DNA of 33,771 nt. Source: a virus. The notes beneath the pieces were generated by a model that saw only the letters and a list, made by a program, of their open reading frames with translations, did not search any database and had not been told where the DNA came from. This document shows positions 421-13,756 of this stretch, one piece after another. A program made the translations under genes and the position numbers. Each line of letters starts with the position of its first letter. Position 1 is the first letter of the stretch. Location: IMG/VR virus record IMGVR_UViG_3300017986_000069, positions 1 through 33,771 of that record. One strand, given 5' to 3'.

Positions 421-1938
421 ATGTCAGATTATGATAACGCTTCCGATATAGCGGAAAGACAACTTAGAAATATTTCTAAATCCATGTGCTATGCCAAATG
501 GAGTCAAGTGTCTTTGCATCTTACAAACGGAAAAACTCATAGCTGTTATCACCCACCTACACATTCAATTGATGTAACAGAATTAAAAGACAATCCGTCA
601 GCACTACACAATACAAAGCAGAAAAAAGAAGAACGTAAAATGATGCTTGAGGGCAAACGTCCTGAGGGCTGTTCTTATTGTTGGAAAATTGAGGATGCTG
701 GACATCGTTCTGATAGAATACATAGAAGCGGAGAGTATTGGGCACAAAACTCTAGACAAGATATTATTAAAACATTAGATATAGGAAATATTAATCCACG
801 TTATGTAGAGGTTAATTTTAATCAAGCATGTAACTTTAAATGCTCATATTGTTCGCCTCATTTATCTAATACATGGGAAAAAGAAATAAAACAACATGGC
901 CCATATAATATCATTACAACAGACAAACAAACAGTAATGCACAACGATATTAATCATTTAGATAAAATAGAGTTGATGCCTATTAAAGTAGCACAAGATA
1001 AAAATCCATATATTGAAGCCTTTTGGAGATGGTGGCCTGAGTTATATGAAACACTAGAAGTTTTTAGAATGACAGGTGGCGAACCATTAATGGACAGCAA
1101 CACATTTAAAGTATTAGATTATATTTACGAACATCCTAATGCTTGGTTAGAAGTTAGTGTTACAAGTAATATGTGCCCACCTAAACCAAAATTAATGGAT
1201 AAGTTTATTGATAAACTACAAAAACTAGAAGAAATACAAATATGGAAAAGTGAACGCTTTAACCCAGGTTCAGGTAACCATTGGTATGTAAATATGGCAG
1301 TTAAAAACTTTGCTGTATTCGTTAGCTTAGATGGGGTAGGAAAACAAGCAGAATATATGAGAAATGGGTTAGATTATGACCTTTTACAGACCAATGTTCA
1401 ACGAATTCTAAATGAGACCGATAATACTACACTTACCTTTATAAACACTTTTAATAACCTATCTTTACCATCTTTTAAAGAATTTCTTATATATATTTTA
1501 CGGTTAAGAGAACAATTTAGCAGCGATAAACAAGGAATCAAGTATAAAGATATTTACGATCCTTATAATACGCATAAGCCTTATGAAATACATCCTAGAC
1601 AAAGAATATGGTTTGATGTTCCTATACTAGAAAAGCCTGTATGGCAAAACATACATACAATACCTGCTGAGTATGAAATTTACTTAGAAGAAGCAATAGA
1701 CTTTATGGAAGAACATCAAGACACTTCTAACTTTGTTGGCTTTTATGATTTTGAGATAGAAAAAGTAAAACGTAATCTCAATCTTATGAGAGAGGGTAGA
1801 GAAAAACTAACTGAGCAAGAAATAGAAACTGCTCGATATAATTTTGTTAAATTTTTTAAACAACATGATGCTCGACGTGGAACAAACTTTCTCAAAACAT
1901 TCCCAGAGTATCTAAGGTTATGGAATAATTATGGATAA
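421..1938 (+). CDS. Twitch-domain radical SAM enzyme
   Basis: 505-aa radical SAM protein. The core [4Fe-4S] motif C-x3-C-x2-C is at Cys137, Cys141 and Cys144 (C-N-F-K-C-S-Y-C), and the SAM-binding Gly motif M-T-G-G-E-P is at about 217-222. An N-terminal set of cysteines (Cys23, Cys42, Cys84, Cys87; the last two in C-S-Y-C-W-K-I-E-D) looks like the auxiliary-cluster ligands of the twitch-type radical SAM proteins common in marine phages. Such enzymes cleave S-adenosylmethionine to a 5'-deoxyadenosyl radical; the substrate cannot be read from the sequence. There is no Shine-Dalgarno before the ATG at 421, only AT-rich sequence. The stop overlaps the next gene's start by 8 nt, so the carbamoyltransferase is probably translationally coupled and acts in the same pathway. 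Confidence 0.88.
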   Translation: MSDYDNASDIAERQLRNISKSMCYAKWSQVSLHLTNGKTHSCYHPPTHSIDVTELKDNPSALHNTKQKKEERKMMLEGKRPEGCSYCWKIEDAGHRSDRIHRSGEYWAQNSRQDIIKTLDIGNINPRYVEVNFNQACNFKCSYCSPHLSNTWEKEIKQHGPYNIITTDKQTVMHNDINHLDKIELMPIKVAQDKNPYIEAFWRWWPELYETLEVFRMTGGEPLMDSNTFKVLDYIYEHPNAWLEVSVTSNMCPPKPKLMDKFIDKLQKLEEIQIWKSERFNPGSGNHWYVNMAVKNFAVFVSLDGVGKQAEYMRNGLDYDLLQTNVQRILNETDNTTLTFINTFNNLSLPSFKEFLIYILRLREQFSSDKQGIKYKDIYDPYNTHKPYEIHPRQRIWFDVPILEKPVWQNIHTIPAEYEIYLEEAIDFMEEHQDTSNFVGFYDFEIEKVKRNLNLMREGREKLTEQEIETARYNFVKFFKQHDARRGTNFLKTFPEYLRLWNNYG

Positions 1939-3382
1939 TTTCGCAGATATAGTATGGGGAATTTCAGCAGCAACACATGATGCCTCATTAACTGTGATGC
2001 AAGGAAACACAATTTTATTTGCTTCACATTCGGAGAGATTTACAGGAATAAAAAACGACAAACACTTATCTAAAGATTTAGTTAGGTATGCTTTACGTTG
2101 GGGACATCCTACAAAAATATATTGGTATGAAGATCCATATTGGAAAGCAACAAGAAAAATATTTGCAGGACAAAAACGTCCTTGGTTAAATCCTAAAGAA
2201 TATTTAAAAAACTTTATTGAATTAGATTACATACAACCTGAAATTATATATGGTGACCATCACAAATCACACGCAGCGGCATCATATTATACCAGCCCAT
2301 TTACATCAGCAGCCATTGTAGTAGCAGACGCTATAGGAGAGTGGACTACGACATCTATATGGCATAATATGAAATGTTTAAAACGTTGGTATTATCCTAA
2401 TTCATTAGGATTGTTTTACTCTGCTATGACAGATAGAGTAGGACTAAAACCAAACGAAGACGAATATATTTTAATGGGTATGGCAGCATATGGTAATGAA
2501 TGGAAATATGAAGCAAGAATACGAGAAGAAATATTAGAAAGTGGACTTAACTTACATAAAGGAATAAAAGGTTGGGCCCCAGAACTTACAACAGAACAAG
2601 ACTTATTTGATATAGCAGCAGGTGCACAACTTGTTTATGAAGAGGAGTTTTGTAAACTATTGGGAGAGGCTGCACAACTTACAGGCGAGAAAAATGTTGT
2701 ATTATCTGGAGGATGTGCGTTAAACTGTTTAGCAAATAGACTTATTCCACAATACTTTGAAAACAACTGGATTATGCCTAACCCAGGAGACGCAGGTTCA
2801 TCATTAGGAGCAATACTAGCAGCTAAAGATAGTTATTGTAATTGGGGAGGCCCATACTTAGGTTATAACATTGTTAAGCCATATCCTATAGAGCCATTAG
2901 TAAAAGAATTAAAATCAACAGGACTGGCAGGTGTAGCAAATGGCCCTGCAGAATTTGGCCCTAGAGCTTTAGGCAATAGAAGTTTATTAGCAGACCCTCG
3001 AGGTGAAACAATGAAAGCTAAAGTAAACACAATTAAAAACAGACAAGAGTTTAGACCGTTTGCCCCTGTTATAAGACAAGAGGATGTATCAAAGGTATTT
3101 AATGTAGAGGCAGACTTTGTTTCACCTTATATGCAATACATTGTTACTTGTAAATTCCCAGATAAATATCCTGCTATTGTTCATAAGGATGGCACAAGCA
3201 GAGTTCAAACAGTTACAAGAAAGGAGAATGCGGGATTATACGACACATTAACAAGGTGGTATGAAGACACAGGATGTCCGCTATTATTAAATACAAGCTT
3301 AAATATAAAAGGACAACCTATTGTAAATGATGAAAAAGATGCCGAAAAATTTGCTAAACATTACGGTGTCAAAGTTTTCTAG
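1931..3382 (+). CDS. NodU/TobZ-family O-carbamoyltransferase
   Basis: 483-aa carbamoyltransferase. The N-terminus (G-I-S-A-A-T-H-D-A-S, about residues 10-19) is the ASKHA-fold phosphate-binding start typical of NodU/CmcH/TobZ proteins. G-D-H-H-K-S-H-A-A-A at about 108-117 supplies the His-rich metal/catalytic motif, and A-D-A-I-G-E-W follows. The C-terminal Sua5/YrdC-like half has E-F-G-P-R-A-L-G-N-R at 341-350 and F-R-P-F-A-P-V, both hallmarks of the family. Members use carbamoyl phosphate and ATP to make carbamoyl-AMP and then carbamoylate a hydroxyl, usually on a sugar. At 483 aa it is shorter than TobZ-type enzymes (roughly 550-570 aa). The start overlaps the radical SAM gene by 8 nt. The acceptor may be a glycan, a nucleoside or a small metabolite; the sequence does not say which. 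Confidence 0.9.
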   Translation: MDNFADIVWGISAATHDASLTVMQGNTILFASHSERFTGIKNDKHLSKDLVRYALRWGHPTKIYWYEDPYWKATRKIFAGQKRPWLNPKEYLKNFIELDYIQPEIIYGDHHKSHAAASYYTSPFTSAAIVVADAIGEWTTTSIWHNMKCLKRWYYPNSLGLFYSAMTDRVGLKPNEDEYILMGMAAYGNEWKYEARIREEILESGLNLHKGIKGWAPELTTEQDLFDIAAGAQLVYEEEFCKLLGEAAQLTGEKNVVLSGGCALNCLANRLIPQYFENNWIMPNPGDAGSSLGAILAAKDSYCNWGGPYLGYNIVKPYPIEPLVKELKSTGLAGVANGPAEFGPRALGNRSLLADPRGETMKAKVNTIKNRQEFRPFAPVIRQEDVSKVFNVEADFVSPYMQYIVTCKFPDKYPAIVHKDGTSRVQTVTRKENAGLYDTLTRWYEDTGCPLLLNTSLNIKGQPIVNDEKDAEKFAKHYGVKVF

Positions 3383-4658: not shown

Positions 4659-5322
4659 ATATAAGCATAACTTTGTTGACGTTGGCGATATTCGCCAAGT
4701 CAACCTACCTGAAGGGCGTAGATATGTTACACCCGAAGGCAAGAAGTATCCTAGTGTTACAACAATATTAGGACATAAAACACCACCTTGGATATTAGCT
4801 TGGCGTAAAAGAATTGGTGAGGAAGAAGCAGACAAAATTGCTAGACGTGCAGCAGTTCGAGGCACTAAGTTTCACACTCTAACAGAAAATGTATTGCTTA
4901 ACAAAGAAACAGATCATAAAGAAGTATTAGGATTATTAGATCAAAAAATGTATGAATCTTATCGTCCATTACTAAATGATGTTGACAACATACAAGCAAT
5001 AGAAGCTAAATTATATTCAGACCATTTGCGTTTAGCAGGACAGGTAGACTGTATTGCAGAATATAAAGGTAAGCTTTCAGTTATAGATTTCAAAACATCT
5101 AAGAAAAAGAAAACACTCTCAGGATGTGGCAATTACTTTGTTCAAACAGCAGCTTATGCTATTATGTGGGAAGAAAGAACAGGCATTCCTGTAGATCAAA
5201 CAGTAATCATTATGGCAGTAGAAGAAGATGAACCAATTGTTCATGTTCAAAAACGTGATGATTATGTCCCTAGATTATTAGAACTTAGAGACGAATACGA
5301 AAAAGACGTCCAAACGGTATAA
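4636..5322 (+). CDS. PD-(D/E)xK exonuclease, RecB/Cas4 type
   Basis: 228-aa nuclease with the full RecB-family motif order: His80 (F-H-T-L-T-E), Glu123, G-Q-V-D with Asp138, V-I-D-F-K-T with Asp151 and Lys153, and Q-x3-Y at Gln170-Tyr174. The N-terminal Y-P-S-V-T-T-I-L-G motif is also typical of phage members. These enzymes bind Mg2+ and degrade DNA ends. I chose 4636 (M-A-Q-T-T-L-S) over 4606 because AGGA lies about 10 nt upstream and 4606 has no ribosome binding site. The gene overlaps the preceding one and shares its sigma70 promoter, suggesting early expression. There are no Cas4 iron-sulphur cysteines (only Cys139 and Cys164), so a plain exonuclease is more likely. Probable role: host DNA degradation or recombination/repair. 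Confidence 0.87.
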   Translation: MAQTTLSKYKHNFVDVGDIRQVNLPEGRRYVTPEGKKYPSVTTILGHKTPPWILAWRKRIGEEEADKIARRAAVRGTKFHTLTENVLLNKETDHKEVLGLLDQKMYESYRPLLNDVDNIQAIEAKLYSDHLRLAGQVDCIAEYKGKLSVIDFKTSKKKKTLSGCGNYFVQTAAYAIMWEERTGIPVDQTVIIMAVEEDEPIVHVQKRDDYVPRLLELRDEYEKDVQTV

Positions 5323-5329
5323 TAACATC

Positions 5330-5358
5330 TTGACTTACCTATAAAGTTACTATATAAT
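5330..5358 (+). promoter_or_regulatory. Strong sigma70-type promoter; predicted +1 falls on the epimerase ATG
   Basis: TTGACT (5330-5335), 17-bp spacer, TATAAT (5353-5358), then AGTAGC and the ATG at 5365, again exactly six bases between the -10 hexamer and the ATG. No Shine-Dalgarno precedes this ATG and no other nearby in-frame ATG exists, so the mRNA is probably leaderless. Confidence 0.85.
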
Positions 5359-5364
5359 AGTAGC

Positions 5365-6240
5365 ATGTTTAACAACGAAGAAATCCCAAATATCATTGTA
5401 ACCGGAGGCTGTGGCTTTATCGGAAGTCATTTTACTGAACGATTACTTGATGAGGGATTTTGCGTAACGGTTGTTGATGACAAACGTCAAGGAGATTGGG
5501 TAATACCTCATCCTAATGTTAAATATTATTTTGAAGATGTCGCAAACTTCAATCCGTTTAAAGGGGAAATAACCCCACCTGTAGCTATCTTTCATTTAGC
5601 TAACTCGCCTCGTGTTCGCAGATCGTTAGAACGCCCAACGGAAACAATCGTTAATAATATCGCATCAACAGCCGCCGTCGCAGATTGGGCAAGAATAATG
5701 AATTGTAGATTATTTTTCGCTACTTCATCTAGCACACAATATTCGGATTCTGATAATCCTTATACATGGTCCAAAGCTAATTGTGAAAACTTGTTAGAAT
5801 TATATCATAGACTTTATCAGTTAGATTATTCTAAACTTTACTTTTATAGCGTTTATGGGCCCGGTGAAGCAGATTACGGAGAATACAGCACAGTTATAAG
5901 ATGCTTTAAAAAGAAATATTTGGAAAACAAACCTTTACAGGTATTTGGAACAGGTAAAAAGGAAAGAGACTTTACACACGTCTACGATGTTGTTCAAGGA
6001 TTAATACAACTATTAGCAGACGAAAACGCTCCTAAAATTGTTCACTTTGGAAAAGGAAGTCCTAGAAGAATTAAAGACATTGCTGAAGCATTTGACCACC
6101 CAATTATTAACGCATTTGACCAACCAGGTGAAGCACAGAAAACATTATGTAAAACACCTTATATTGAATGTCCAACAGAAGTTATAGCATACATAAAAGA
6201 TTGGGTAAAAAGAAATCACAACAGGAGTAATGATGATTGA
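5365..6240 (+). CDS. NAD-dependent sugar epimerase/dehydratase (extended SDR)
   Basis: 291-aa extended short-chain dehydrogenase/reductase. The Rossmann dinucleotide motif T-G-G-C-G-F-I-G-S lies at 13-21, a Ser-rich catalytic strand (T-S-S-S-T) at 120-124, and the catalytic Tyr-x3-Lys at Tyr133-Lys137 (Y-T-W-S-K). F-G-T-G-K-K-E-R-D-F-T-H-V-Y-D at about 194-208 is the substrate-side motif shared by GalE/RmlB-like enzymes acting on nucleotide sugars. It is a little short (GalE is about 338 aa). Exact substrate (UDP-glucose, UDP-glucuronate, dTDP-glucose) cannot be told. It has its own sigma70 promoter with the ATG at the predicted +1, so early expression is likely. It may feed the same glycan or base-modification route as the carbamoyltransferase 2 kb upstream, which is inference. 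Confidence 0.88.
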   Translation: MFNNEEIPNIIVTGGCGFIGSHFTERLLDEGFCVTVVDDKRQGDWVIPHPNVKYYFEDVANFNPFKGEITPPVAIFHLANSPRVRRSLERPTETIVNNIASTAAVADWARIMNCRLFFATSSSTQYSDSDNPYTWSKANCENLLELYHRLYQLDYSKLYFYSVYGPGEADYGEYSTVIRCFKKKYLENKPLQVFGTGKKERDFTHVYDVVQGLIQLLADENAPKIVHFGKGSPRRIKDIAEAFDHPIINAFDQPGEAQKTLCKTPYIECPTEVIAYIKDWVKRNHNRSNDD

Positions 6241-8150: not shown

Positions 8151-11100
8151 TTAAATTCTGCGACCTATATATTGTCGTCTTTGGAAATGTAACGGAGTAT
8201 TGTCGTTAATACGAGATGTTGGTGGGGCGGTTACAATAATGTCGCCCTCGGAACCTGTGTTATTTGTTACATTGTTTACAACTGTTTGGCCTCCGCCTTG
8301 CATTCCAGCCATTTGGCCTGTTTGTTGTTCTATACTTGTCATATTTTCAACAGCATCACCTGTTGGAACAGGATCTAAACCTGCTACCTGTGCCTTTCCT
8401 GTTTTCTTTTGATTTAATGCATCTTGAACAGCCTTCATATCATCAGCAGATAAGTCGTCATCTTGAACAATTGCTTGTAATTCATCTATACTAGCATCGC
8501 CTAATTTACTTCTATCTATTTTAGACTTTCTCATACCTCTTTCTTTATAAAGGCCTGATTCTTTTGCTGACTTAAAGCCTGCTTCAGTATTAGCTTCTAG
8601 TGTATCTGCTATTTTCTTTCTGTCTACACCTATTGCCGAAGTAGCTGCTTCATTGTTCATTAATGCTTTTACAATAGCAGCATTTTTAATAGCAGCTTTA
8701 TCGTTATCTGATAACTCAGCGTCCCCAGCTTCTTCTAACAACGCAGCCTCAATTTCATTTGCTTCTTGTTGTATTTTACTAGCTAACCCACTATCTTTTT
8801 CTGCGATTTGTTTCATCGCTTCTTCTGCCTGAGCATTTGACTCAGCTAACTCACCGGGATCTACATCTAACGCATCACCTACAGCGCCGCCAAGTTTTTT
8901 ACCTGCAAACGAACCACCGAAGTAACCTATAGCTCCTCCAATAAGTCCACCTACAACTGTTCCTACAACAGGAATTGCTGAACCTATTGCCGCACCAGCA
9001 GCCGCGCCTGCAAGAGCACCGCCTGCTCCACCTACGCCTTCTCCTACTGCTTCAGCCTTTGCAATTTGTTCTTCTTCTGCTGTTAGTTTGCCTGCATCTG
9101 CATCTGCTTCTGCTTGTTTTGAACCCGAATAAGCTGTATAGGCTCCTAAGCCAACTGCTGCTACAGCACCACCTGCCTTTGTAAGCATGGCACCTTTACC
9201 TTTAAACATATTACCTAGTCTAGACAGTTTGCCTTTTTTGCCTTTGCCTTTTTTGCCTTTCTTGTTTTTACCGCCTGTTCGGCCCATGATGTCCATGCCA
9301 CCACCGCCGTCGCCGTCGCCACCTAAAGCTCCGTCTTCTAATAGTTCTCTAATTTTTACTAGCTCTTCATATGACTTTTCTTGGAATGACTCTCTATCTG
9401 TTCCACTAAATACGGAACCTGATGCTTTAGCTTTACCGCCTCCGCCTGTTAACGGAAGTTCTCTTTGGCCAGTGGTTTCTCCTTCAGCTACTGCATCTGT
9501 TGCGCCTTCTAAAGCGGCTACATTTAATTGAGGCCTACCGGAGCTATCTGTTCTTAAGAATTCATTATCTGGATTTGCTCCTTCAGGTGTTGTTAAACTT
9601 AATCCTTTTTCGTCGCCTACCATATCGGCAAGTCCACGTGTTTGTATTTCGGCTCCTGTTTGTATTCTTATTTCTCTTTGAGCCATTTCCTCACGTTGAT
9701 TATCAGTATAAAAATTACTTAATCCGCCTGTTCCAGCATCACCAAATAATCTTGTAGGTGAGAATGCTTGTTTTAACCCACCAAAGAATCCTGCTCCCTG
9801 ATCTATATTTAAACTTTCTTTTAATGAACCTGTAAATGTCTTTTTACCGAGATCTTTTTGTAGGTCCTTAAGTCCTAATAAACTTTCAAAATCAGGAGCA
9901 CCTTCTACACCGCTTTCTTTTGCTATTTGAGATTCAACACGAAGTTCTTTAATCATGTTGTTGACTTCTTTTACAGCTACTTCTTGATCTTTACCTGTAG
10001 CTGTTTGAGCCTTATTCATTAATTGGGTTAACCCACCAATTTTTTCTCCTACTTTACCTTCAGGATCTGACTCCATTAATTGTTGTAAAGTAGCTGCGTT
10101 TGCTGTTATGTTCTTTGCTAATGATGATGAGCCTTTAGCAGTTCTAAATGCTAATTGGTTTGATGTTTCTCCTGCGCCTATTACATCATCGCCTCTTGCG
10201 TCTTTTACAGCACTAATAAAATTTTCAACTCTACTTTCTGATTCTAAATAAGCATCCTCTTTTGCTAAGGCTCCTGTAATCTCGTTTCTATATCTAGTTG
10301 CGTCCTTGCCTGTTTTTGTTTTGTATTGTTCTCTTCTTACTGTTGCTTGACCACCTATCAAAAGTTTTGACATTTGGTTTTGGTTGACGTTACCTTCTAA
10401 GTCTCCTTTTTCCCCTCTTAATTCTTTTTTGGCGTCTGTTGGATCTACTGCATAGCTACGTTCTCTTAAGGATTCACTAGGGTTATTAGGATCGTATGTT
10501 CTACTTCTTCTCGGTGCATTACTTCCGCCTGACAATGGAAGTTCTTGTTGTCTTTTATTTACTTGTCTTTGTGCTTGTGTTTGGTTTACAGGAACTTTTC
10601 TCGGAATACTAGGTGCATTAGGATCTCTTCCAAACAATTCTCCTTGAACAGGAACCGTTCCACTTGATGATACATTAGGAGTCGTTTGTGCTGTGCTTGT
10701 TGTGGTTCTTGGTGCACTTCTTTCGTCTTTTACTATAACTGTCTGTCCGCCAGTTCCTCCGCCGCCTCTGCCTGCATTAATATCGTCAATCTTCTTTAAT
10801 AATGCTCCTATACCTTGCTCTACTCTAATTCTAGAATCACGTGCACCTTTGTTATGTTTTCTTTGTTCTTTATAGAAGTCACCTTCAAGTCTACCTTTTA
10901 AAATGTTACCTCTTTTCGATATAAGAGTCTCAGCAATTTGCATCTTGTTGAAAGTTTTATTGTCTTTAGCTTCATTTTTAAGAAAGTCTGTTTGTTCTTT
11001 AGATTGTCGTTTTACTTCATCTAACTCGTCTTTAATACTTTGCTCTAAATCATTAAAGCCCTTCTCTTTTTCGACAGATGGGTCCTTAGACTTTGCAGCC

Positions 11101-11159
11101 TCCATATCTCGCAGCATTTTCTCCATGCCTGCTATTAAACTTCTAGGTGCTTCTGGCAT
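8151..11159 (-). CDS. Large tape-measure-like virion protein, 1002 aa
   Basis: 1002-aa protein at the end of the minus-strand tail operon, starting in a TAATG overlap with the gp51 stop. Order of regions: charged helical/coiled-coil N-terminus (about 1-130); low-complexity Gly/Thr/Gln/Arg-rich part (about 130-240) with Q-E-L-P-L-S-G-G, a motif repeated at about 565 as R-E-L-P-L-T-G-G; further helical segments (240-600); a Lys/Gly tract (about 620-640); a long Gly/Ala-rich hydrophobic stretch (about 645-760) compatible with membrane insertion; charged helices (760-930); and a T-V-V-N-N-V-T-N-N-T tail. Large size, helical charged composition, a Gly/Ala hydrophobic segment and a position just after gp26/gp51 fit a tape measure protein (the job of T4 gp29). 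I do not see direct gp29 identity, so another internal virion protein is possible. Confidence 0.6.
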   Translation of the reverse strand: MPEAPRSLIAGMEKMLRDMEAAKSKDPSVEKEKGFNDLEQSIKDELDEVKRQSKEQTDFLKNEAKDNKTFNKMQIAETLISKRGNILKGRLEGDFYKEQRKHNKGARDSRIRVEQGIGALLKKIDDINAGRGGGGTGGQTVIVKDERSAPRTTTSTAQTTPNVSSSGTVPVQGELFGRDPNAPSIPRKVPVNQTQAQRQVNKRQQELPLSGGSNAPRRSRTYDPNNPSESLRERSYAVDPTDAKKELRGEKGDLEGNVNQNQMSKLLIGGQATVRREQYKTKTGKDATRYRNEITGALAKEDAYLESESRVENFISAVKDARGDDVIGAGETSNQLAFRTAKGSSSLAKNITANAATLQQLMESDPEGKVGEKIGGLTQLMNKAQTATGKDQEVAVKEVNNMIKELRVESQIAKESGVEGAPDFESLLGLKDLQKDLGKKTFTGSLKESLNIDQGAGFFGGLKQAFSPTRLFGDAGTGGLSNFYTDNQREEMAQREIRIQTGAEIQTRGLADMVGDEKGLSLTTPEGANPDNEFLRTDSSGRPQLNVAALEGATDAVAEGETTGQRELPLTGGGGKAKASGSVFSGTDRESFQEKSYEELVKIRELLEDGALGGDGDGGGGMDIMGRTGGKNKKGKKGKGKKGKLSRLGNMFKGKGAMLTKAGGAVAAVGLGAYTAYSGSKQAEADADAGKLTAEEEQIAKAEAVGEGVGGAGGALAGAAAGAAIGSAIPVVGTVVGGLIGGAIGYFGGSFAGKKLGGAVGDALDVDPGELAESNAQAEEAMKQIAEKDSGLASKIQQEANEIEAALLEEAGDAELSDNDKAAIKNAAIVKALMNNEAATSAIGVDRKKIADTLEANTEAGFKSAKESGLYKERGMRKSKIDRSKLGDASIDELQAIVQDDDLSADDMKAVQDALNQKKTGKAQVAGLDPVPTGDAVENMTSIEQQTGQMAGMQGGGQTVVNNVTNNTGSEGDIIVTAPPTSRINDNTPLHFQRRQYIGRRI

Positions 11160-11299
11160 TAGCTTTTCATATCCCTCACGGTTTCTTTATTCTTTTCTAT
11201 TTTCTTACGCAAGTGCACAACTAGCATACTTACATATATTTCTCTTTCCCAAGGCAACATTTCTTCTATTTCTGATAGACTCCAATGATGTTCTTGCAT
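11159..11299 (-). CDS. 51: gp51, baseplate hub assembly protein (probably expressed mainly by -1 frameshift from gp26)
   Basis: From the only ATG in frame (11299) the product is 46 aa: M-Q-E-H-H-W-S-L-S-E-I-E-E-M-L-P-W-E-R-E and so on. The P-W-E-R-E-I-Y-V-x-M-L signature matches the small gp51 proteins of marine T4-like phages. The frame is open and protein-like further upstream (I-T-L-S-Q-D-S-L-E-N-Y-F-K-T-N-F-L-L, 11353-11300), but contains no ATG, GTG, TTG or CTG there; only an ATA overlapping the gp26 stop. That missing part is reached if ribosomes slip -1 on T-TTT-TTC at 11362-11356 near the end of gp26, giving a gp26-gp51 fusion of about 297 aa. Its stop overlaps the next start as TAATG. 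Whether a free 46-aa form is made is unclear. Confidence 0.75.
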   Translation of the reverse strand: MQEHHWSLSEIEEMLPWEREIYVSMLVVHLRKKIEKNKETVRDMKS

Positions 11300-11313
11300 T
11301 AATAAGAAATTCG

Positions 11314-11342
11314 TCTTGAAATAATTTTCAAGAGAATCTTGA
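11314..11342 (-). repeat. Alternative stem-loops downstream of the frameshift site
   Basis: TCTTGAAA (minus 11333-11326), loop ATTA, TTTCAAGA (11321-11314) forms an 8-bp perfect hairpin. A TCAAGA just upstream (11342-11337) can instead pair with TCTTGA (11333-11328) around a 3-nt loop. Both structures lie 13-22 nt after the slippery heptamer, further than the usual 5-9 nt, so a stimulatory role is uncertain. Confidence 0.5.
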
Positions 11343-11349
11343 GAAAGAG

Positions 11350-12051
11350 TTATGCGAAAAAATGTTCGTATCCGTTAATTGATACTGCATTTGGCTTTCC
11401 GCAATCTTCTTTAGGACAAGTATATTCTACAATGTGTTCTAACATTGGCATTGTCTTAAAGAACTCTCTAGTCTCTGCAAGAGCCTCAAGTGGTAAAGTT
11501 TCTACAAAACCTACAACTTCATCATCTGTTTCCTTAGATACATCCCATGATTGTTCGGCATCAAATACGGTGTCGATACAATGTTTTAGGATCTCAACAT
11601 CATCCAAGTCATCAATTTTATTCATTATGTGTGCTGGCGGGAATTTTAATATCATTCCTACAGTCTTATCTTCATTTAGAAAAATTGTTTTTGAGGAATC
11701 TGAATCAAGATTATTAATCTTAAATTCATCAACTTCAACTTCATAACTCATTGTGCCTTTACAATGTCCACAAATTAACATGAACTCTTGTTTGTTACCT
11801 ACAGACTCTTTTCTTATTTGTAAGAAAGTCCATTGTAACAAGTGCATTGGCAATTTAGTTGCATCTACTTCTCCAAACGAACAGTTGGTGACAACTTGTT
11901 GACATACGTTAAGCATATCTTCATATTCACCGTCAGAAGCCATTGTTAAAAGTTTTTCTTCTTTTACCTTAAAAGGCCTAAATTTATATGTTTCATTTGT
12001 TCCTGGGAACGTTAAATTAAATGTTGGTGTCTCCAATACTGGTAGCGCCAT
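11350..12051 (-). CDS. 26: gp26-like baseplate hub assembly protein
   Basis: 233-aa protein of the T4 base plate (gp26) family. The start M-A-L-P-V-L-E-T-P, then F-R-P-F-K-V-K-E-E-K-L-L (25-35), N-C-S-F-G (56-60) and I-R-K-E-S-V-G (79-85) are typical. Two Cys pairs, C-G-H-C (94-97) and C-x4-C (212, 217), probably form a zinc ribbon. In T4, gp26 and gp51 are adjacent and needed to assemble the central hub with the tape measure gp29. Ribosome binding site AGGAGA lies 6 nt upstream of the ATG at 12051. The gene ends with a slippery T-TTT-TTC two codons before the stop, which would fuse it to gp51 in the -1 frame. Start and family are clear; the frameshift is inference from sequence. Confidence 0.85.
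   Translation of the reverse strand: MALPVLETPTFNLTFPGTNETYKFRPFKVKEEKLLTMASDGEYEDMLNVCQQVVTNCSFGEVDATKLPMHLLQWTFLQIRKESVGNKQEFMLICGHCKGTMSYEVEVDEFKINNLDSDSSKTIFLNEDKTVGMILKFPPAHIMNKIDDLDDVEILKHCIDTVFDAEQSWDVSKETDDEVVGFVETLPLEALAETREFFKTMPMLEHIVEYTCPKEDCGKPNAVSINGYEHFFA
11356..11362 (-). promoter_or_regulatory. Slippery heptamer T TTT TTC: candidate programmed -1 frameshift site (gp26 to gp51)
   Basis: On the minus strand the last gp26 codons read GAA CAT TTT TTC GCA TAA. The heptamer is in the correct X-XXY-YYZ phase, two codons before the gp26 stop. A -1 slip reads TTT TTT CGC ATA ACT and enters the gp51 frame, which is open from there. Confidence 0.65.
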
Positions 12052-12070: not shown

Positions 12071-12733
12071 TTAAATAAAAGGATCTCTTTGAGGAGGTTG
12101 TCCTTTATTTGATTTTAATTTGCCGTCTTCAAAAGTTCCATCTAAAACCGGTCTTTGTTTCTTTCTTGCATCCTCTGCAATTGGCTCACATGGTTTGTAT
12201 ATCCATTTAACTGAAGATACGGTGAGTGAGATTCTTAAAGGACCAGGCGAACCTGCTGAAACAGGAATCAAGTTTAAAAGTTTTGGAACACTATCAATAA
12301 GTTTCCATTCTCCTAATACTTGATCTTGTTGCGACAAACTTTTTACTACAATAGACCCAAATACTTCATCCGGGAATGCTAACTCTTTTGTATAAGGATT
12401 AGCAGCTAGAAATATCCAGTCTTCAAAAACGTGCCTATGGGCCCATTTTTCATCTGCAATAAATGTAAACACAGACTCTTGTCCTAAAAAGTCTACGTTC
12501 TTAATTCTGTATTCCTGCCAAGCACCTATTTTAACAGGTTCTACTTGGGCAGAAAGTCCTGGGATTTGAGCTTCTTCACAAAATAAAGTAAGAGTTTCAT
12601 CTACACCCGGATACCATTGTCTTAATGCAAAAGGTAAATTAAACTCTACCTCATACCTATCAGCACGAGGTAAATGTTGTTCTCTTACCGCAGCTCTAAA
12701 ATTGCTTAGTTTAAATTTTGCTTTATCAGCCAT
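12071..12733 (-). CDS. Tail-tube-fold protein, probably baseplate tail tube initiator (gp54-like)
   Basis: 220-aa protein with the layout of T4 tail-tube family members (gp19/gp54): R-A-D-R-Y-E-V-E-F-N-L-P (24-35), then L-F-C-E-E-A-Q-I-P-G-L (49-59), a strand with F-T-F-I-A-D (88-93), F-E-D-W-I-F-L-A-A-N-P-Y-T (102-114) and a final V-S-S-V-K-W-I-Y (172-179) followed by a disordered Lys/Pro tail. The R-Y-E-V... I-P-G... F-x-x-W pattern is typical of proteins that stack as the tail tube. Presence in an operon with gp26, gp51 and the tape-measure-like protein, and gp48 on the other side of the divergent promoter region, suggests gp54 rather than the major tube protein gp19. The start overlaps the preceding gene by 8 nt. 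T4 gp54 is longer (320 aa). Confidence 0.6.
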   Translation of the reverse strand: MADKAKFKLSNFRAAVREQHLPRADRYEVEFNLPFALRQWYPGVDETLTLFCEEAQIPGLSAQVEPVKIGAWQEYRIKNVDFLGQESVFTFIADEKWAHRHVFEDWIFLAANPYTKELAFPDEVFGSIVVKSLSQQDQVLGEWKLIDSVPKLLNLIPVSAGSPGPLRISLTVSSVKWIYKPCEPIAEDARKKQRPVLDGTFEDGKLKSNKGQPPQRDPFI

Positions 12734-13312: not shown

Positions 13313-13320
13313 TATTTATA
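13313..13320 (-). promoter_or_regulatory. T4-type late promoter box with ATG at predicted +1
   Basis: Minus-strand TATAAATA (13320 to 13313), then CTTAT, then ATG at 13307. No Shine-Dalgarno lies upstream of this ATG, so the transcript is probably leaderless. The box overlaps the last codons of gp4. Confidence 0.75.
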
Positions 13321-13756
13321 ATGATAGGCCGAGTTCTTTTTCCGTTATTATTAAGAACTCCCAACCTTTGTGATTAGCAAATTGTTTAGCACTTTCCCAC
13401 TTTGCTAAATTTACTCCGTATTGTTTTACCTCATTTATAAATTTTTTAGTTTTTCTTTGAGGAATTTTAGGCTCTTTTGTAAATCTATGAGGTTTTACTT
13501 CTACTAAATATTTTTTATCTTTAGTTTCAACAAAAAAATCAACGAAGTATCTATGTATTCTATTATCTAATGGACTTTTGTAAGGAACCACAATTTCCTC
13601 AGAACTCCAAGACAATACATCTTGGTTCTTGTCTGCCCAATTCATAAATTTTAGTTCGTAGCTACTCCTATATACAATATCATTTACACGACCTTTGTAT
13701 TTACTAGGATTTTTAGGAACAAACTTTCCTTGATATATTTCCTTTGAGTATGCCAT
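13316..13756 (-). CDS. 4: gp4 head completion protein (endonuclease-like)
   Basis: 146-aa homologue of T4 gp4 (150 aa). The start Y-Q-G-K-F-V-P-K-N-P-S-K-Y-K-G matches T4 gp4 closely. Nuclease-like residues are kept: Glu34 in Y-R-S-S-Y-E-L-K-F, Asp73 in Y-F-V-D-F-F and Glu86-Val-Lys88 (E-V-K-P), a PD-(D/E)xK arrangement related to TnsA-type nucleases. In T4, gp4 joins the filled head so that the tail can attach; whether it cuts DNA is not settled to my knowledge. Ribosome binding site AGGAT lies 3-4 nt upstream of the ATG at 13756, and a minus-strand late promoter box lies at 13785-13792. First gene of the minus-strand late operon. Confidence 0.9.
   Translation of the reverse strand: MAYSKEIYQGKFVPKNPSKYKGRVNDIVYRSSYELKFMNWADKNQDVLSWSSEEIVVPYKSPLDNRIHRYFVDFFVETKDKKYLVEVKPHRFTKEPKIPQRKTKKFINEVKQYGVNLAKWESAKQFANHKGWEFLIITEKELGLSL

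Follow-up and report, generated by a model that had tools for sequence, protein, structure and literature searches.

gp26 and gp51 of a T4-like phage form a very probable tail assembly chaperone cassette with a predicted -1 frameshift

Our analysis indicates that a minus-strand locus in the window (the whole 33,771-nt stretch of viral DNA analysed, IMG/VR record IMGVR_UViG_3300017986_000069) is very probably the tail assembly chaperone cassette of a T4-like phage, encoding a short protein, gp26, and a predicted -1 fusion of gp26 with gp51. This reading draws on the frameshift signal and its conservation, homology to T4 gp51 and the predicted fold of gp26; frameshifting itself, the ratio of the two products and their contacts are predicted. 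The preliminary description of this DNA had placed gp26, gp51 in the -1 frame and a 1002-aa protein in that order with a TAATG junction, and the coordinates, order and frame were all confirmed on the minus strand. It did not include a slip site, which we locate at 11362-11356. The features of the locus are as follows.

12071..12733, minus strand: tail-tube-like protein, 220 aa (phrog_45 tail tube, E 2.4e-17; phrog_3629, E 4.8e-9)
11350..12051, minus strand: gp26, short tail assembly chaperone (TAC-N, G-like), 233 aa (PF12322, E 1.3e-42; phrog_150, E 6.5e-43)
11370..11377, minus strand: place of the Shine-Dalgarno (SD)-like element, weak here (TAACGGAT, -3.3 kcal/mol)
11374 to the stop at 11159, minus strand: open gp51 frame, -1 relative to gp26
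11362-11356, minus strand: slippery heptamer T_TTT_TTC, in frame with gp26 and 10 nt ahead of its stop
11159..11362, minus strand: -1 frame as it would be read after the slip, the predicted C-terminal extension (TAC-C, T-like), of which the ATG ORF is only 11159-11299
11307..11339, minus strand: predicted hairpin, a possible stimulator (-11.2 kcal/mol, z -2.24)
11159-11299, minus strand: gp51 ATG ORF, 46 aa, first ATG at 11299 (phrog_634 'baseplate hub assembly catalyst', E 2e-14)
8151..11159, minus strand: 1002-aa ORF, probable tape measure (weak PHROG tape-measure matches)

The gp26/gp51 pair sits between the tail-tube-like gene, which precedes gp26 in the place of lambda V, and the 1002-aa ORF, whose identity as a tape measure is only probable. 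At the TAATG junction the last A of the gp51 stop codon is shared with the ATG of the 1002-aa ORF. Profile matches to PF12322, phrog_150 and phrog_634 were all present, placing the pair in the T4 gp26/gp51 family. Elsewhere in the window, a head-closure protein (gp4-like, phrog_218; 13316-13756) has a match to PF08722, the N-terminal domain of TnsA-like endonucleases (E 6e-21), and 421-3382 encodes a radical-SAM-like protein and, after it, a Nol-like carbamoyltransferase, which may serve in metabolism or modification.

The slip site and the signals around it

In codons, the 3' end of gp26 reads CAT TTT TTC GCA TAA, so that the heptamer at 11362-11356 stands in the phase required for a -1 shift, in a region where the -1 frame is open. 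The predicted frameshift product has 297 aa, running through gp26 to ...YEHFF and continuing as RITLSQDSLENYFKTNFLLMQEHH... in the -1 frame. Relatives were drawn from IMG/VR and from phage records (Kyanoviridae, pelagiphage HTVC008M, and Methylophilales, Sinorhizobium, Pseudomonas, Stenotrophomonas, Vibrio, Cronobacter and other phages); rescanning viral sequences with the alignment brought up the same contigs only. Among the distinct gp26 genes with gp51 downstream, gp51 lies in the -1 frame, complete gp51 frames end 167-203 nt past the gp26 stop, and the +1 frame meets a stop after a median of 16 nt; 104 of these 105 genes carry an in-frame T_TTT_TT(C/T/A) 7-16 nt upstream of the stop. When the genes were grouped into clusters sharing less than 50% identity, the first Phe codon of the site was TTT in 22 of 22 clusters (TTT and TTC occur 130:123 elsewhere in those genes), and the codon preceding it ended in T (NNT), again in 22 of 22; the motif turned up at 1 of 5171 other in-frame positions. 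The conservation of the slip site is not chance; since the 22 clusters are not fully independent, the product of probabilities (9e-13) serves as a rough guide only.

The sole relative without the slip site was Vibrio phage K452 (L041, 5001-5908), which reads ACG CTT TTT GCG TAATG at this place. Its gp51 is still in the -1 frame but is not directly followed by any annotated long tape-measure-like ORF, and the record yielded a single copy of phrog_150. Cronobacter phage S13 (L042, 4932-5848) is listed under Straboviridae in an unverified record; it differs from the T4-type genomes examined in carrying the slip site, with gp51 in the -1 frame, and only one copy of phrog_150.

Sequence around the slip site carries further candidate recoding signals. 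Across 23 representatives, predicted structure peaks in the interval starting 11 nt from the start of the slip site (mean z -1.90), compared with mean z values between -1.0 and +0.2 away from it, and their downstream hairpins come out at -10.7 kcal/mol versus -7.0 kcal/mol for synonymous shuffles, with 0 of 100 shuffles as strong. The hairpin of the window is matched in stability by 2% of synonymous shuffles and lies 16 nt past the heptamer, farther than usual. Many relatives have an SD-like element about 7 nt upstream of the slip site, averaging -4.7 versus -0.9 for the background; set against synonymous shuffles the family gives -4.8 versus -3.9 kcal/mol, a modest excess, and the signal is partly explained by conserved amino-acid sequence. 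We set aside an SD-driven shift in the window, since its element is weak and indistinguishable from synonymous shuffles and the excess in the family is modest.

The combination of a hairpin after the slip site with an SD-like element before it is a possible addition to the published picture. Tentatively, and with slightly less than even probability, the T4-like frameshift signal might be viewed as a dnaX-like, three-part one (an SD-like element about 7 nt before U_UUU_UUC, plus a hairpin) whose parts have been traded between lineages, so that the ratio of short to long product would be tuned in each lineage, and which the T4 group would have swapped as a whole for gene duplication. The window has the hairpin and almost no SD.

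Homology to T4 gp51 and the fold of gp26

In T4, genes 26 and 51 lie on opposite strands, so no frameshift can join them. Residues 13-244 of T4 gp51 align with residues 21-277 of the predicted fusion, across the junction (E 9e-9), and a profile comparison of gp26 with T4-type gp51 gave 97.7%. The proteins of the two phages are homologous (phrog_150, phrog_634), with T4 gp51 the counterpart of the window's fusion product; the difference is that T4 has separate genes and no frameshift, whereas the one gene of the window is predicted to make both forms.

Copy number follows the same division. T4 and five T4-type genomes each contain two phrog_150 copies, of which the short one stops at profile positions 236-246 and the long one extends to 281-282; in a sixth T4-type genome (G005) the long copy is in two pieces. 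Frameshifting genomes contain one copy, and its match stops at 231-235 (for Stenotrophomonas phage BUCT608 it was extended across stop codons to 253); eight of their records also yielded the neighbouring -1 fragment. The two-gene T4-type arrangement is absent from the window: the 33.8-kb record, a fragment, holds one PF12322 copy and has an overlapping -1 frame instead. In IMGVR_UViG_2974754850_000001 (L168, 5001-5758), a T4-type gp51 is split into two ORFs in different frames, by a sequencing error or a real break.

We modelled gp26 with AlphaFold2 on 18 gp26 sequences (pLDDT 88.5). The preliminary description had proposed comparing its fold with G/GT-family chaperones, and the two best VIA-align rows were both tail assembly chaperones: 3fgx (Z 8.1, gp26 residues 5-94) and 2ob9, from HK97 (Z 7.7, residues 1-84, 83 aligned, rmsd 3.3), with the next row at Z 4.7. 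A Z near 8 is moderate alone and is telling here because both chains belong to one functional family (PMC9603447). The model supports a tail assembly chaperone fold for residues 1-94 (TAC-N, as in HK97 gp13). Foldseek alone returned no significant match for the gp26 model (2ob9 at E 4.4), and sequence searches of Pfam and solved structures with gp26 yielded PF12322 only, the other matches being chance-like. Profile comparison found no sequence similarity of gp26 to lambda G or HK97 gp13 (hhalign probability <1% against single sequences), though such similarity is not a defining feature of this highly diverged family.

Beyond residues 1-94, gp26 is predicted to be mostly beta structure and, in the window's lineage, carries two cysteine pairs. 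These pairs are zinc-ribbon-like and are absent from several cyanophage and pelagiphage homologues. The natural T4-type fusion, gp51, was modelled with a pLDDT of 82.9.

Alternative readings of the locus

Public records annotate gp26 and gp51 as two separate proteins, a hub component and a hub assembly catalyst, which would be made independently or by coupled reinitiation; the records we fetched list two CDS with no slippage, and T4 gp51 is a separate gene. We consider this arrangement highly improbable for the window because of the properties of the gp51 frame. Its ATGs almost never have an SD sequence (a run of at least four precedes the first ATG of the -1 frame at 1% of loci, compared with 32% before gp26) and vary in position among relatives, and in Nitratidesulfovibrio phage SRB7757 (L039; gp26 homologue 5001-5720) the frame has no ATG after the slip site, making an ATG-started gp51 impossible in that phage. 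The slip-derived stretch upstream of the gp51 ATG is conserved as protein in the alignment, and from the gp26 stop to the 21st codon past the slip site the three positions of the -1 codons diverge by 0.076, 0.042 and 0.263, a pattern that bears the mark of translation in the -1 frame; judged from these comparisons, the -1 frame upstream of the ATG is under protein-level selection. The fusion also outscores the separate parts, with 89.6 bits against phrog_634 versus 54.8 for the ATG-started ORF, and 187.9 bits against phrog_150 versus 148.2 for gp26 alone. The separate gene of T4, moreover, encodes a full-length gp26-like plus gp51 protein, not a short gp51 alone.

Other readings accept the fusion and differ on its origin or its role. 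Transcriptional slippage can occur where six or more T stand in a row, and with seven T in some relatives, RNA polymerase rather than the ribosome might generate the fusion. We regard this as very unlikely, given that the heptamer preserves the X_XXY_YYZ phase of a tandem slip, most often with C as its last base, and that the downstream hairpin and SD-like element fit ribosomal -1 shifting. It is somewhat less improbable, though still unlikely, that the shift is real and the proteins serve the baseplate hub only, the 1002-aa protein being some other structural protein: T4 genetics puts gp26 and gp51 in hub assembly (PMC3004832), and the 1002-aa protein's own PHROG tape-measure matches are mixed as well as weak. 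Against a purely hub role stand the tail assembly chaperone fold predicted for gp26 and the long, length-variable protein (464-1083 aa) that occupies the same place in nearly all relatives, that of HTVC008M matching seven tape-measure profiles. In T4, gp29 is both the tape measure and a protein of the hub (PMC3004832), so hub and tape-measure roles may be one. The 1002-aa protein had no match among solved structures, and a comparison of T4 gp29 with candidate tape measures from five groups showed no convincing mutual similarity. The position of the 1002-aa protein, the size variation among relatives and the weak profile matches make it a likely tape measure.

Proposed mechanism and relation to known systems

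The suggestion that gp26/gp51 might be the T4-type equivalent of the lambda G/GT chaperones is borne out by gene order, frame, slip site, the T4 gp51 fusion, the copy pattern and the gp26 fold, and the assignment of gp26 as G-like (TAC-N) and of gp26-gp51 as GT-like (TAC-NC) is well supported. Under this chaperone reading, most ribosomes would finish gp26, while a minority would slip back one base at T_TTT_TTC, probably aided by the downstream hairpin, and produce the 297-aa fusion. By analogy with lambda gpG and gpGT, many gp26 copies would then coat the 1002-aa tape measure protein, the C-terminal domain of the fusion would recruit tail tube subunits, and both gp26 and the fusion would leave afterwards. 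Both gpG and gpGT of lambda bind the tape measure through their G sequence, and gpGT binds the tube subunit through its T part; the two are made at a ratio of 30:1, and neither is retained in the virion (PMC5009743). T4 gp51 is also absent from the final particle (PMC3004832). Since the T part of lambda binds the tube subunit, the gp51 part would be expected, on the same analogy, to contact the tail tube protein and not the 1002-aa protein.

The locus shares with lambda G/GT and HK97 gp13/gp14 the order of tube, tail assembly chaperone, -1 extension and tape measure, as well as the pairing of a short product with a -1 fusion (predicted in the window), and the N-terminal fold of the gp26 model resembles HK97 gp13 (2ob9). 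It differs from them in its lack of detectable sequence similarity, in its T-run slip site and in the length of gp26 (233 aa, with an extra beta domain carrying the cysteine pairs, compared with 140 aa for lambda G and 128 aa for HK97 gp13). In the Vandenendeviridae and Andersonviridae, other phage families that are likened here by arrangement and slip site, a -1 frameshift has been proposed at a T-rich GTTTTT near the TAC-N end, before the tape measure gene (phage Adele; PMC12846349).

As conveyed by citing papers, the principle of the T4-like chaperones was already published in outline in 2022 by Vladimirov and colleagues, closing the T4 gap. The novelty of the window's locus is limited accordingly. 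The abstract of that study reportedly names T4 genes 26 and 51 and states that several groups frameshift. T4 was still excepted in 2016 (PMC5009743). As relayed by later papers, Vladimirov, Gautam & Davidson 2022 (Virology 566:9-15, pmid 34826709) described some T4-like phages in which the short form and the long fusion are encoded by separate genes (via PMC10885494), and the work is cited for T4-like phages whose TAC-N genes contain poly-T slip sites (via PMC12846349).

Our data suggest that 'gp51' in these records, which span 22 divergent groups, would be more aptly annotated as an extension of gp26 made by frameshifting than as a gene of its own, and the locus points to the protein after gp51 as the likely tape measure. 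The findings support the use of the lambda-like trick of short and long chaperones in T4-like tails, in a lineage far from the laboratory phages.
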